DNA of 41,155 nt from an uncultured Pseudomonadota bacterium (GTDB taxonomy: Bacteria; Pseudomonadota; Zetaproteobacteria; Mariprofundales; Mariprofundaceae), in contig CAJXLC010000018.1 in the NCBI GenBank assembly GCA_913055645.1, positions 1 through 41,155 on the forward strand, read 5' to 3'. The notes beneath the pieces were generated by a model. The model was not told where the DNA came from. It searched no databases and saw only the letters and a program-made list of their open reading frames with translations. Position 1 is the stretch's first letter; each line of letters begins with the position of its first letter. Both the position numbers and the translations under genes were made by a program. Shown here piece by piece: positions 7,035 through 33,445 of this stretch.

Positions 7035-8326
7035 TAGATAGAAAAGCTTTTCGTAAAGATTTTGAAGTGATGCAAGCTGCTTTGGCGCGTCGTGGTGATG
7101 CGCTTGTGGCAAAAGGTTCTGCATGGGCACGCGCTAGTGCTCTGGATACAGCACAGCGTGAATTAAAATCGCAGTCAGAAGCATTGCAAGCAGAACGAAA
7201 TAGTGTATCCAAACTGATTGGTCAGAAGAAAAAGAATGGTGAAGATGCATCCGAAGAATTGGCACGTATGGGTGAGGTTGCCAAACAATCCAAGGCGTTG
7301 GATGCACAAGCCAGAGAAGCTGAAACAGCATTTACAGATGCTTTGTTGGAAATTCCCAATATGCCGCATGAATCTGTACCTGATGGTGTAGATGAAGATG
7401 ATAATGTTGAAATTCGCCGTTGGGGAGAGCCTCGCCAAGATGAGGTGCCTGCGCATTGGGATATTGGTGAAACATTGGGTATACTTGATTTTGAAACGGC
7501 GACAAAGCTAGCTGGAAGTCGATTCTCTGTGTTGCGTGGTGCGGCGGCACGTTTAGAGCGCGCTTTGATGCAGTTTATGTTGGATATGCATGCCGATCAA
7601 CATGGTTATGAAGAAGTTTGGGTGCCTGCCATTGCTAATCGTAAAACATTAACGGGCACAGGGCAGTTGCCAAAGTTTGAAGATGATTTGTATGCTTTGG
7701 ACGGTGAGGATGCATTTCTTATCCCGACTGCGGAAGTGCCTGTTACCAATTTATATCAAGATGAAATCTTAAATGCGTCTGATTTGCCTATTCGCCATTG
7801 TGCCTATACACCATGTTTTCGCCGTGAAGCAGGTTCGGCTGGGCGTGATACACGAGGTATGATTCGCCAGCACCAATTTGATAAAGTTGAGTTGGTGCAA
7901 CTTGTACATCCTGATGATGCTTTGACTGGCTTGGATGAGTTAACAGGGCATGCAGCAGCGATTCTGGAAGCTTTGGAGTTACCATATCGAGTGGTAAATT
8001 TATGTGCGGGTGATATTGGCTTTTCAGCACAAAAAACCTTTGATTTGGAAGTTTGGTTGCCAAGTCAATCATGTTATCGCGAGATTTCATCGTGTTCATC
8101 CTTTGCTCAATTTCAAGGGCGACGAGCAGGCATTCGTTTTAAATCAGAAGGAGCTAAACCTGAAGCAGTCGCAACGTTGAACGGTTCAGGCTTGGCAATT
8201 GGTCGTACATTGGTGGCGATTCTTGAAAATGGCTGGGTGCTTGATGAAAATGGCAATGATTCAGTGGTTATTCCTGAAAAATTAAGACCTTATATGGGTG
8301 GGTTAGAGAGAATTATTAAAGTGTAA
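7031..8326 (+). CDS. serS: Seryl-tRNA synthetase
   Basis: SerS is a class II aminoacyl-tRNA synthetase that charges tRNA-Ser (and tRNA-Sec where present) with serine in the cytoplasm. The 431 residues match the family. The N-terminal part (about residues 1-105) is rich in Ala, Lys and Glu, as expected for the coiled-coil arm that recognises the long variable arm of tRNA-Ser. Motif 2 starts [14 protein letters not shown] at residue 263, and motif 3 is [17 protein letters not shown] from residue 384. The ATGA overlap with gyrA indicates translational coupling. It ends 9 bases from the convergent amidotransferase gene, with no strong terminator in between. Confidence 0.97.
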
Positions 8327-29298: not shown

Positions 29299-29332
29299 CT
29301 AAGTCCGACCTAGATAAATGCTAATGAAAGCT

Positions 29333-29409
29333 GTCATCTCGACCGAAGCAGAGAGATTTATTTCACAACACATTGATAATAAAGATCTTTCGACTTCGCT
29401 CAAGATGAC
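29333..29409. repeat. 77-bp imperfect inverted repeat (MITE-like)
   Basis: GTCATCTCGACCGAAGC at the left end mirrors GTCATCTTGAGCGAAGT read from the right end on the other strand (29409 inward), with the arms continuing in mostly paired form (AGAGAT/AAGATC) to a short AT-rich centre. The termini GTCATCT-GA resemble mobile intergenic hairpins seen in many genomes. It sits between the CBS gene and tsaE and may be transcribed as a long hairpin. Confidence 0.6.
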
Positions 29410-29458
29410 CAATGGTGTCAAATAGCGTTAATCATTGGGAATGACAGAGGAATAACGT

Positions 29459-29969: not shown

Positions 29970-29998
29970 CTATTTTATATCTTATAAAATAGGCTTTT
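29970..29998. terminator. AT-rich hairpin with T tract after tsaE
   Basis: CTATTTTAT (29970-29978) pairs with ATAAAATAG (29984-29992) around ATCTT, followed by GCTTTTT. It is 76 bases after the tsaE stop. The stem is AT-only apart from its outer pair, so termination may be weak. Confidence 0.4.
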
Positions 29999-30034
29999 TA
30001 AGCATTGTTGGCTAAGTTAAATTGAAATATTTTA

Positions 30035-30061
30035 AATCAATCGAGTCTGACCCTATTGATT
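30035..30061. repeat. Inverted-repeat remnant AATCAAT...ATTGATT
   Basis: AATCAAT (30035-30041) and ATTGATT (30055-30061) flank CGAGTCTGACCCT. The sequence GAGTCTGACCC between such arms is one I associate with REP-type or small-transposase-linked repeats; that link is recollection only. It lies at the left edge of the cassette island, where the second attC would be expected. Confidence 0.35.
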
Positions 30062-30079
30062 ATGTCTGAATTTTTCTTG

Positions 30080-30430
30080 TTAGCTGTTGGCAATAACATT
30101 GTGTTTTGTATTAAGCATTTCTAGTAAATATTCTTCTATTGCTGGGGCTTCAAATCCAACATTTATTGGAAGAGGAATCGTTGTTATATATTTACAGTCA
30201 GATGACTCAGCTGTTTTGGAATTCCATTTCACATCAAATCTAGCACTAAGGCGTGAACCAATATTATGTGATGCCTTTCCAATATAAGAAACTAATTTAT
30301 CTGAATCTAAAAACACATACACGCCAGGTTTTTCATTGCTCGGCCATGAAGCTCTAAATTGTGTGGATATATCGAGCAAGTCAGTTAATTTCAATTTACC
30401 GTGTGGTCGGATGTTTATGATTAAACTCAT
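30080..30430 (-). CDS. GIY-YIG nuclease-like protein (cassette gene)
   Basis: This 116-residue protein has a compact GIY-YIG fold: 'GVYVF' (residues 36-40), 'SYIGKAS' with the YIG triad at 49-51, arginines at 60 and 64, the glutamates of 'AIEEYLLEMLN' near 99-104 and a final Asn (111). All the usual catalytic positions can be filled, so it may be an active DNA nuclease. No DNA-binding or methylase domain is attached. Its stop codon lies inside AGCTAAC, the reverse complement of the GTTAGCT at the start of its unit, the expected layout of an integron cassette. It has no Shine-Dalgarno; see the promoter entry. Confidence 0.8.
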   Translation of the reverse strand: MSLIINIRPHGKLKLTDLLDISTQFRASWPSNEKPGVYVFLDSDKLVSYIGKASHNIGSRLSARFDVKWNSKTAESSDCKYITTIPLPINVGFEAPAIEEYLLEMLNTKHNVIANS

Positions 30431-30441
30431 TTAGAACTATT

Positions 30442-30470
30442 TTTAAAGCATTGAATGTAGAAAGTGTCAA
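30442..30470 (-). promoter_or_regulatory. Cassette promoter, nearly leaderless
   Basis: On the minus strand TTGACA (30470-30465) and TTTAAA (30447-30442) are spaced by exactly 17 bases. Transcription would start near 30435, only about five bases before the ATG at 30430, so the mRNA would be almost leaderless, matching the absence of a ribosome site. Just upstream a GAGGG is followed by ATGTAA (30477-30472), a start-stop pair. Confidence 0.5.
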
Positions 30471-30494
30471 TTTACATATTCCCTCTTTATGTAC

Positions 30495-30587
30495 AGCTAA
30501 CGCCCTGCATAACCTGACGGTTTTACACAGAGCAGAACGAAGTGGCGCGGCGTGTAAAACCGGTCAGCGTTTATGCAATTGTTAGGC
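30495..30587 (-). other. attC-like integron recombination site
   Basis: Read on the minus strand this 93-base site runs GCCTAAC ... GTTAGCT, starting 3 bases after the HPP stop codon. Inside, GCATAA/TTATGC (30507-30512 with 30571-30576), CTGAC/GTCAG and an 11-bp stem CGGTTTTACAC/GTGTAAAACCG (30518-30528 with 30552-30562) form a long imperfect hairpin with an extrahelical G at 30562 and a 23-base apical region. Outer 7-mers of RYYYAAC/GTTRRRY type, palindromic arms with bulges, and position right after a stop are attC features. GTTAGCT has one mismatch to GTTRRRY. Confidence 0.8.
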
Positions 30588-30590
30588 TTT

Positions 30591-31100
30591 TTACAGCCAA
30601 TATTTTGGATAGCTCCGATCCTTAGAAATATTGTTGTAAAAAAGGGCTACTAGCACTAATAGGATAGCACCAATCAATGTTGGGGTTAATAGAAACTCCC
30701 AGTTTGCACCAACTAGAAATACAATAAACGGATTTGAACCCGCAGGTGGATGTGGAACCCTCAATAGTTGCATGACTGAAAGTGCCGTTGCTAAAGATAA
30801 GGCCATGCTCCACCAGTCTGGGCTAACAAAATGCAAGAATACTAAACCAGTTAGTGTTGATACAAAATGTCCGCCAATCACATTTCGAGGCTGTGCAAAT
30901 GGGGTATCAGGGAGTATGAATAATACGAAGATGGATGCCCCAAACGAACCTAAAACTAACGGTTGTTTGGTATAGTAAGCCAATGAACCAACTACGGTCG
31001 CAGCCAAAAAAGCCCCAAACCAAATAAAACCTACCTGGCTTAAAGGTGGTGAAGGTGGTAATGGTGTAGACAAACCTTTGAATTTTTGAAAATATGACAT
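30591..31100 (-). CDS. HPP family membrane protein (cassette gene)
   Basis: This inner-membrane protein of 169 residues has about four helices and carries the family name motif in 'RVPHPPAGSNP' (HPPAG at 117-121), plus 'PLVLGSFGASIFVLF' and 'FAQPRNVIGGH', all conserved in HPP proteins. A plant chloroplast member has been linked to nitrite transport; the bacterial role is not settled. GAGGAG precedes the ATG. The stop is 3 bases from the attC-like site. The tetR gene lies 55 bases upstream on the same strand with an operator-like site between, so HPP is probably the regulated target. The coding sequence contains a further copy of that site. Confidence 0.9.
   Translation of the reverse strand: MSYFQKFKGLSTPLPPSPPLSQVGFIWFGAFLAATVVGSLAYYTKQPLVLGSFGASIFVLFILPDTPFAQPRNVIGGHFVSTLTGLVFLHFVSPDWWSMALSLATALSVMQLLRVPHPPAGSNPFIVFLVGANWEFLLTPTLIGAILLVLVALFYNNISKDRSYPKYWL
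30958..30975. repeat. Third copy of the operator-like sequence, inside the HPP gene
   Basis: AACGGTTGTTTGGTATAG is identical to 31126-31143, the site between tetR and the HPP gene, 168 bases away. Here it encodes Tyr-Thr-Lys-Gln-Pro in the HPP protein, and the left half-site is degraded (CTAAC instead of CAAAC). Confidence 0.6.
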
Positions 31101-31122
31101 GGTATTTCTCCTCTTTTAGATA

Positions 31123-31139
31123 ACAAACGGTTGTTTGGT
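31123..31139. promoter_or_regulatory. TetR operator-like site before the HPP gene
   Basis: CAAAC-GGTT-GTTTG (31124-31137) is a near-copy of the palindrome in front of tetR (16 of 20 positions over the wider site). It lies between the tetR stop and the HPP ribosome site. Confidence 0.6.
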
Positions 31140-31155
31140 ATAGATAGCAAATATT

Positions 31156-31719
31156 TTACGGCAGAAAATCGATAATTGCCTTGTTTTGAATTTTAAAGGG
31201 ATCTGGTTTCCCATATATACGCATTAACATGATGCTACCTTGCGTGGCTGATACAATTTGCATAGCTTTTTCCTTGGCCTGTTTTTCTCCGATTTCAGGT
31301 TTTAATATTTGATAAATAGCTTCTTCCCAGTTTTTGAAATACTCAATAATTTCATTCTTAAACAAAGGAATATTATTTGATATTTCCAATGCAAAGTTAC
31401 CCAATAGGCACCCCCCTTCGCTATTCATAAAATATTCTTCAACCTTTTTAGTGAACAAAATCAATTTATCTTTAGGGGATAGCTGTTTTGTGTAGGCAAT
31501 TGAAAATATTTCTCTATTAAAATACTCATGAATATATTTCAGGCATTCCAAAGCTAATTCTTCTTTGCTTTTAAAGTGATGATAAATACTTCCTTTGATT
31601 AAACCGCAAGCTTCTCCAATAGTTGCCATCGTCGTACTGTTGTAGCCATGTACTTTGAACAAGTGAATGCTCTTTTGGATTATTGATTCTCTATTTGTCT
31701 TTATTACTGGCATAACCAT
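31156..31719 (-). CDS. TetR/AcrR family transcriptional regulator (cassette gene)
   Basis: This 187-residue repressor-type regulator has an N-terminal helix-turn-helix of TetR type ('SIHLFKVHGYNSTTMATIGEACGLIKGSIYHHFKSKEEL', roughly residues 17-55) and a helical ligand domain. The domain includes 'GGCLLGNFALEIS', a pattern with a conserved Cys seen in several TetR subgroups that sense electrophiles or oxidants; the ligand is not known. A perfect CCAAAC-GGGA-GTTTGG palindrome sits just upstream of the ATG and would allow autorepression. An alternative ATG lies two codons in. AT-rich codons set the gene apart from the core genes. It is the first gene of the inferred two-gene cassette. Confidence 0.9.
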   Translation of the reverse strand: MVMPVIKTNRESIIQKSIHLFKVHGYNSTTMATIGEACGLIKGSIYHHFKSKEELALECLKYIHEYFNREIFSIAYTKQLSPKDKLILFTKKVEEYFMNSEGGCLLGNFALEISNNIPLFKNEIIEYFKNWEEAIYQILKPEIGEKQAKEKAMQIVSATQGSIMLMRIYGKPDPFKIQNKAIIDFLP

Positions 31720-31722
31720 TTA

Positions 31723-31738
31723 CCAAACGGGAGTTTGG
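31723..31738. promoter_or_regulatory. TetR operator-like palindrome at the tetR promoter
   Basis: CCAAAC (31723-31728), GGGA, GTTTGG (31733-31738) is a perfect 6-bp inverted repeat overlapping the predicted transcription start of tetR, an ideal autorepressor position. Related sites occur at 31123-31139 and 30958-30975. Confidence 0.65.
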
Positions 31739-31741
31739 CAT

Positions 31742-31770
31742 AGTATAAATGATAACGGTAGTTTTGTGAA
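31742..31770 (-). promoter_or_regulatory. tetR promoter
   Basis: On the minus strand TTCACA (31770-31765) and TATACT (31747-31742) are separated by exactly 17 bases, five of six matches each to the sigma-70 consensus. The -35 box abuts the core site GTTAGGC (31777-31771), so the promoter belongs to the cassette. Confidence 0.65.
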
Positions 31771-31777
31771 GCCTAAC
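31771..31777 (-). other. Core-site 7-mer GTTAGGC at cassette start
   Basis: GTTAGGC on the minus strand fits the GTTRRRY core and is the exact reverse complement of GCCTAAC (30587-30581), the first core of the attC-like site at the other end of the tetR-HPP unit. No partner attC half is visible beyond it (31778-31900), so the unit may be joined to an attI-like or secondary genomic site. Confidence 0.6.
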
Positions 31778-31960
31778 AATCCCAATCGCAGGAATCGTTG
31801 TCCTCATATTTTCTATACTTATACGGACATATTTTCCTTGATATTGGATATTAAGGGCAAAACAAGGATAATCTGTAGCATTAAGCATTTTCATAACACC
31901 ATCGTGAATAAAAGGGAATCGAGCGTCAAGGCATGTTTGTTTGTAGTTTGTAAAGGGATA
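31778..31960. other. Junction between cassette island and gltD terminator
   Basis: This stretch of 183 bases has no gene I can support. A short minus-strand frame (starting at 31894) lacks a convincing ribosome site and family. No integrase fragment or complete attI/attC could be recognised. Confidence 0.4.
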
Positions 31961-32008: not shown

Positions 32009-33445
32009 TTATTTTGCAGGTAAGCCCGAGCTTCCCATCAAATATTCGTCGATACCACGGGCACATTGACGACCTTCGTTAATGGCGCGAACCACCAATG
32101 ATTGACCACTACGCATATCACCCGCAGAAAAGACTTTTTCAAGGCTGGTTTGATAATCCGATGTATTGGCAGATACATTGCCACGACCATCTTTTTCCAA
32201 TGCCAATTCTTCAATCATGCCTTCATGCACAGGATGCAAGAAACCCATAGCAAGGAATACAGCATCAGCTTGTAAGGTGAAATCAGAGCCTTCGATTTCT
32301 GTCATATTCCAACGACCATCCGTATTGACCCATTCAACACGCGCACATTCAATGGCAGTTACCTTGCCATTTTCACCCACAAAACGTTTGGTAGTGATGG
32401 CGAAATCACGCTCACAACCTTCTTCTTGCGAGGTTGAGGTACGCATTTTCATTGGCCAATTTGGCCATGTGACCAGTTTATCAATGGTTTCAGCAGGGGC
32501 AGGCATAATTTCAATTTGTGTGACCGATGCTGCACCATGACGGTTTGATGTGCCGATACAATCCGAGCCCGTATCACCACCACCAATCACCACGACATGT
32601 TTACCTTTGGCAGACACAAATTCTGATTCAGGAATATTATCACCCAATACACGCTTGGTATTTTTGGTGAGTAATTCCATGGCAAAATGAATACCATTCA
32701 AATCACGACCTTCAATCGCTAAATCACGCGGTGCTTCTGCACCACCTGTTAATGCAACGGCATCAAATTCTTCGAGTAACGATTTCGCAAGAATATCTAC
32801 ACCAATATGTTGGTTTACACGGAATTCCACACCTTCAGCTTCCATTTGCTGCAAACGTCTATCAATCACAGCCTTATCAAACTTAAAGTTTGGAATGCCA
32901 TAACGCATCAATCCGCCAGCACGGTCTTCTTTTTCAAACACCACCACATCATGACCCACACGCGCCAATTGTTGCGCACATGCCAAACCTGCAGGGCCTG
33001 AACCAACAACCGCAACTTTTTTGCCCGTTTTTTCTTTGGCAATTTGCGGTGTTACCCAACCATTTTCAAATCCTTTCTCAACAATGGCAAGCTCGATATT
33101 TTTAATGGTGACTGCATCACCAATCAAGTTCACCGTACAAGCTTCTTCGCATGGGGCAGGGCAGATGCGACCTGTAAATTCAGGGAAGTTATTCGTGCTA
33201 TGCAATACATCCAAAGCTTCACGCCATTGATTTTTATACACCAAATCATTCCAATCAGGGATGATGTTGTTTACAGGGCAACCATTATGACAAAATGGAA
33301 TACCACAATCCATGCAGCGCGCACCTTGTGTGCTCATATCATCTGGAAGCTTTGAAAACTCCTTGAAATGCACCACACGCTCTGCAACAGGAGCATATGA
33401 AAGGTTTTCACGGTCAAATTCTTTGAATCCAGTCGCCTTACCCAT
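32009..33445 (-). CDS. gltD: Glutamate synthase small subunit
   Basis: GltD is the FAD-containing subunit that takes electrons from NADPH and passes them to GltB. The 478 residues match the family. The N-terminal iron-sulfur region has Cys44, Cys47, Cys52 and Cys56 ([13 protein letters not shown]), with a second Cys group 'CPAPCEEAC'. It is followed by an FAD fold ('[17 protein letters not shown]') and an NADPH fold ('[13 protein letters not shown]'). It starts inside the 3' end of gltB (8-base overlap) with GGAG upstream, so the two subunits are translated together. Confidence 0.96.

Follow-up and report, generated by a model that had tools for sequence, protein, structure and literature searches.

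The window analysed here, a stretch of 41,155 nucleotides, is contig 18 of a draft genome (1.88 Mb, 99.5% complete) from an uncultured member of the Mariprofundaceae (Zetaproteobacteria), a family of iron oxidizers. Read along the minus strand, the locus comprises gltD, with its stop codon at 32009; an attI site just downstream of gltD (31774-31868); a gene for a TetR-family regulator of 187 amino acids (31156-31719; Pfam TetR_N, 4.4e-15); a gene for an HPP-family membrane protein of 169 amino acids (30591-31100; Pfam TM_HPP, 6.8e-48); an attC site (30495-30587); a gene for a GIY-YIG-like protein of 116 amino acids (30080-30430) that weakly matches the N terminus of UvrC; an R'' box (30079-30085); and a REP-like repeat, which is itself on the plus strand (30034-30061). 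The repeat is followed by tsaE on the opposite strand. A strong inverted repeat (GTCATCTTGAGCGAAGTCGA... type) located between a CBS-domain gene and tsaE (29332-29410) resembles repeats found in relatives.

An earlier reading of this DNA, made from the letters alone (the sequence-only reading), had placed an attC-like site at 30495-30587, beginning three bases after the stop of the HPP gene, with GCCTAAC and GTTAGCT ends and bulged palindromic arms. The letters and coordinates proved correct (30587-30581 on the minus strand and 30495-30501, respectively), as did the spacing between the HPP stop at 30591 and the attC at 30587, and the bottom strand of the site was found to fold as a canonical R''-L''-loop-L'-R' hairpin with extrahelical bases (folding z = -3.1). 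The covariance-model search that had been proposed as a check was performed with a model, R1, built from 27 attC sites of other genomes of the family, most of them beside an attI or an intI, and none taken from the host genome. The site scored 39.8 bits (E = 6.9e-9, 67 kb searched) and was the top match when R1 was run on the whole host genome (E = 2.0e-7). The attC, on the minus strand, is real, and its observation is taken as confirmed because of this score and the genome-wide rank. By BLAST, the site also matched (E = 9e-20) a sequence resembling attC that lies within a cassette-like array in a Ghiorsea relative. A strict GTTRRRY/RYYYAAC pattern scan missed true attC sites because those of the family have looser R boxes, and it was replaced by a fold-based scan and the covariance model. 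RNAalifold returned no structure from a plain MAFFT alignment of the attC sites, and the arms were therefore aligned, and the structure supplied, by hand. An Rfam scan of the region gave no attC family and chance-level matches only.

The tetR-HPP unit begins with GTTAGGC (minus strand, 31777-31771), the exact complement of the GCCTAAC of its own attC, as had been pointed out, and is a complete cassette with an intact attC (cassette 1; minus strand, 30501-31776, from TTAGGC to the G of the attC). The proposal that this cassette joins a regulator to its target is supported indirectly by a palindrome, CAAACGNNNGTTTG, which was present upstream of both tetR and the HPP gene in each of the three genomes possessing the pair. 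In the window, the operator-like palindromes are CAAACGGGAGTTTG upstream of tetR (31724-31737) and CAAACGGTTGTTTG upstream of the HPP gene (31124-31137). Since these palindromes are conserved before both genes, the cassette is probably self-regulated by its own TetR-controlled promoter, in which case no integron promoter would be needed. A candidate sigma-70-like promoter for tetR, TTCACA-17-TATACT, lies within the cassette (minus strand, 31742-31770); it is weak, matching 10/12 consensus positions, and promoter-like sites were no more frequent here than in shuffles. In two Ghiorsea relatives the tetR-HPP pair lacks the form of a cassette, which counts against the explanation favored below. 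On contig 50 of the host genome (L167, 6384-7044), recF has an attC and RelE/Phd-like toxin-antitoxin genes as neighbors; in genome G053 (locus L041), a tetR-HPP operon without an attC was observed on the same side of recF. A search for the cassette DNA on plasmids returned nothing, and the plasmid-borne HPP relatives, at less than 60% identity, were uninformative.

The GIY-YIG unit begins with GTTAGCT (30495-30501), which exactly complements the AGCTAAC (minus strand, 30085-30079) containing the GIY-YIG stop, again as first read. On the basis of this seven-base match, and of the attC R' box where it starts, the unit looks like a second cassette (minus strand, 30079-30500, from TTAGCT to the surviving R'' box) whose attC has been broken by the REP-like repeat, a dispersed element present in many genomes of the family. 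The sequence-only reading had seen no second complete attC, and indeed only the R'' box is left as a remnant, with the REP-like element beginning 18 bases further on. No further attC signal was detected for cassette 2 by the fold-based scan or R1. A candidate attC at the opposite end of cassette 2 (29990-30085) gave no convincing fold (z -0.8 to -1.8) and was rejected. The GIY-YIG protein was not found on plasmids, no relatives were found in the GTDB genome collection, and within the family there was no close homologue, the UvrC domain alone giving matches. REP-like repeats or a RAYT-type transposase gene were seen inside or just past the R'' box of an attC at three loci (window, 30034-30061; L104, about 2380-2600; L103, about 7604-7700), as if attC hairpins served as targets for these elements.

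The 95 bp to the left of the insertion point were found, by BLAST against relatives, to be repeated in the host genome and across the family. In relatives, intI genes (TIGR02249 matches above the curated cut-off) are located 60-120 bp from the same element, in the fixed orientation proper to attI and with the cassettes on the far side. A sequence model, R2, was built from 12 intI-adjacent attI copies only, all from other Mariprofundaceae, and run on the whole host genome, where it recovered the window copy (60.4 bits, E = 2.8e-16) together with six further copies; an attI fragment is present in addition at the start of contig 2. Weak-scoring copies may be decayed. In a phylum sample of 249 genomes, all 48 genomes with an R2 match belonged to the Mariprofundaceae, and R2 gave no match in four genomes that represent sister families within its order. 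Two contigs from outside the family that share a 20-mer with the element (L159 and L161) had no R2 match and were discarded as chance. One contig filed under a Robiginitomaculum MAG (L157) contains the attI and attC types of the family and was probably misbinned, its likely source being Ghiorsea.

The stretch at 31774-31868 (minus strand) is thus an attI, with the crossover G^TT at 31777/31776, and not a random secondary site, its predicted function following from position, sequence and content. The sequence-only reading had left the choice at a 'secondary or attI-like chromosomal site'; the R2 E-value decides for attI, and the secondary site falls away. The other parts of that proposal (a pair of cassettes, their insertion through integron recombination and the lack of a neighboring integrase) were supported as well. 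It had missed that the 95 bp up to 31774 belong to a dispersed attI family also found at true intI loci, and that a REP-like repeat interrupts the second attC. It is very unlikely that the cassettes came from a distant integron and landed at a non-classical attG, a GTT site that is neither attI nor attC, with no integron ancestry. Insertion at attG has been published (Loot et al. 2024, as cited in PMC11023631, PMC12444791 and PMC12901181) and yields single attC sites without an integrase (SALIN, PMC12690207), but the attI of intI-bearing relatives matches the 95 bp adjoining the crossover on its left with the E-value given above, and this element recurs at other cassette insertion points in the host genome.

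Four of the host attI copies, on contigs 18, 3, 26 and 2, each precede a cassette that opens with seven bases exactly complementary to the R'' box of its own attC (GTTAGGC/GCCTAAC, GTTAGCT/AGCTAAC, GTTAAGT/ACTTAAC and GTTGTGC/GCACAAC). The products of these four cassettes are an AAA ATPase pair, a TPR protein, a protein without a Pfam match and the tetR-HPP pair, and further genes behind attI copies include those for a NERD protein, an Mrr-type restriction enzyme and a DUF347 protein. Among the 47 attI copies first collected across the family, exact 7/7 matches between start and R'' box were obtained at 12, an undercount since the start of the contig-26 cassette was misplaced, while 2000 shuffles gave 1.3 on average and never more than 5. 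A recognizable attC is not present downstream of every attI copy, a further point against the explanation favored below. Heptamers resembling GTTAGGC are common, and a chance palindrome with chance seven-base matches beside ordinary genes might be imagined; however, the genome-wide top attC match, the attI model match and this shuffling test already refute such an accident, which has a negligible probability. A cassette-like array with several attC-like sites, running from queA to a SulP transporter gene, was observed on contig 203 of G055 (L043, 7548-10565), and no intI or attI was seen there.

No integrase had been visible in the window, and the search for intI was extended, as had been suggested, to the whole host genome. 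TIGR02249 gave weak tyrosine-recombinase matches only, the best at 68 bits and below the cut-off of 265. The match on contig 47 was rejected as a phage-type integrase. The host genome has seven attI copies and one fragment, with intact intI beside none of them, and intI is likely to be absent from it, with the proviso that a draft assembly can hide intI, as multi-copy attI breaks contigs. Across the family, intI above the cut-off was found in 25/74 genomes, a count to be read with the fact that most are drafts in which repeats break contigs, so that intI can be missed. The attI element amounted to 220 copies in 57/74 genomes, with up to 15 in each, and 130 of the 220 lay in the 36 genomes outside the 25 with intI. 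Most attI copies of the family are in genomes or loci without intI. G012 (20 contigs) has 15 attI copies and no intI; G017 (10 contigs, 100% complete) has six attI copies and two intI genes, of which one is complete and the other, located beside a second attI, is broken. Two genomes, G016 (L095) and G032 (contig 37, L096), were observed to carry an intI of a divergent lineage without this attI type, and the intI lineage and the attI type may therefore go together.

Of 65 attI copies without intI that were analyzed, 11 have retained a 5' stub of intI, graded in length from 47 to 257 nt and in register with the attI. Two are in the host genome, where a remnant of the intI N terminus persists directly beside the orphan attI on contig 3 (L091, upstream of 8627) and contig 6 (L191, upstream of 2433). 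The orphan attI sites therefore derive, at least in part, from intI-attI units minus intI. A duplication of the intI 5' end together with attI, about 800 bp apart within a cassette array, was observed on contig 15 of G026 (L104, 2210-3109) and is a possible step in attI multiplication. The stubs bear on two further explanations. Were the repeat a mobile element (MITE- or REP-like) that inserts before GTT and was adopted as attI by some integrons, then up to 15 copies per genome, internal inverted repeats and a mostly sharp left boundary could be understood. However, the distance and orientation to intI are fixed at intI loci, the graded stubs show that many copies come from intI-attI units, and the copies at orthologous gltD and aspC positions are of long standing and not fresh insertions, so this origin appears unlikely. 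The locus could also be a plain fossil, left by several complete integrons in which every intI decayed, with attI and cassettes inert and no use in trans. The graded stubs and the broken intI of G017 would both fit such decay, and CALINs in general are seen as degraded integrons (PMC9024848).

The comparison of relatives at gltD bears on this fossil reading. The attI copy downstream of gltD is shared by the host (G000) with five further species, and two genera are represented: G007, G002, G004 and G001 are congeners of the host, and G059 is a Ghiorsea. Copies at an aspC-like position were found across three genera, and copies at dnaN in two species belonging to the host's own genus. At the gltD, aspC and dnaN ports, the DNA of different species is homologous as far as G^TT, and in every comparison with an intact attI no similarity is seen past it; the one exception is G002 compared with G004, where a truncated attI is followed by the same HNH-like gene. 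Relatives at gltD thus keep gltD and the attI and diverge exactly at the G^TT of 31777, the opposite of a conserved set of three genes in an identical context without attC-like ends. The aspC port of G059 and the contig of the gltD port in G001 also contain model-confirmed attC sites. The content of the ports has turned over between species, and the same orphan port with different genes across species and genera speaks against inert fossils; it follows that exchange continued after divergence, or that ports were emptied and refilled. Between G000 and G059, moreover, the attI block can be aligned at 71%, whereas the spacer between gltD and attI has no local match, and this contrast hints at constraint on a port that has no integrase in cis. 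Turnover before the local loss of intI would also account for part of this, and the fossil reading, though not favored, retains an appreciable share of the probability.

The locus can be set against systems already known. In a complete sedentary chromosomal integron, the attI type, the attC type, the order and orientation of the cassettes and the G^TT junctions are the same, and the locus has both an attI and attC-ended cassettes. Such an integron, however, has intI in cis and a single attI, whereas here gltD lies upstream of attI, no intI was found genome-wide and there are several attI copies. CALINs and SALINs (PMC9024848, PMC12690207) likewise are attC-bearing cassettes without an integrase, but here an attI is kept at the junction. 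With exactly one attC and no intI nearby the locus qualifies as a SALIN; a CALIN needs two or more attC sites lacking intI, and here the second attC is reduced to its R'' box. The usual tools seek attI in class 1 integrons only (PMC9024848), and CALIN or SALIN calls therefore leave the presence of an attI open. Cassettes at attG, as far as Loot et al. 2024 is represented in the papers citing it (PMC11023631, PMC12444791), share chromosomal insertion away from the intI platform, but the target here is a recognizable, repeated member of the attI family and not a divergent non-classical site. The ilvD integrons of Xanthomonas, in which a degraded intI is accompanied by CALINs at fixed loci (PMC12444791), are similar in that cassettes remain after the loss of intI and that off-platform CALINs occupy conserved positions; they differ in having intI at one ancestral locus per genome, while here attI recurs at many loci per genome. 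Delta-attI-type cassettes (PMC12901181) also have attI sequence away from its usual intI-adjacent place, but in those a truncated attI replaces the attC of the cassette, whereas here a full attI stands alone before normal cassettes, cassette 1 having a normal attC. CALINs, SALINs, attG insertions and the integrase-less Xanthomonas loci are thus already known (PMC9024848, PMC12690207, PMC12444791, PMC12901181, and Loot et al. 2024 to the extent cited therein). In the open-access papers searched, no account was found of a dispersed attI family with many intI-less, cassette-bearing copies per genome at ports shared across genera.

Integrons are described as a single platform with one attI beside intI. 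Recombination by the integrase, IntI, takes place at G^TT between attI in double-stranded form and the bottom strand of attC in its folded form, and the cassette inserted last adjoins attI. It is very probable that the locus downstream of gltD is an orphan attI that lost its intI and holds two gene cassettes, which would have been inserted in trans at a reused port. The site would have arisen as an intI-attI unit from which intI was then trimmed away. An IntI acting in trans, encoded by a former copy elsewhere in the genome or by one since lost, would have joined the attC bottom strand to attI, or the integrase may have acted before its own loss; the GIY-YIG cassette would have entered at G^TT first and the tetR-HPP cassette second, the latter probably running on its own TetR-controlled promoter. 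The port would have been kept and reused in different species. For the family as a whole, the orphan copies are most likely attI sites that shed their integrase and are used in trans now, or were until recently.

A broader proposal, which we put forward tentatively and at somewhat below even probability, is that the integron of the Mariprofundaceae is distributed: intI-less attI ports behind gltD, aspC, dnaN, map and other housekeeping genes, held across species and genera, would be kept by selection and refilled in trans by an IntI that is itself gained and lost. That the ports are still in use is close to an even question, recent fossils are a weaker but genuine contender, and the remainder goes to other readings. 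With orphan attI sites, some CALIN and SALIN elements gain a concrete origin, one that is invisible to the usual tools because attI outside class 1 integrons is not modeled by them. The finding of seven or eight attI sites in a genome without any detectable integrase alters the definition of an integron and the view of how cassettes spread, and the presence of up to 15 attI copies per genome suggests that gene capture in this family is distributed over many chromosomal ports instead of one.
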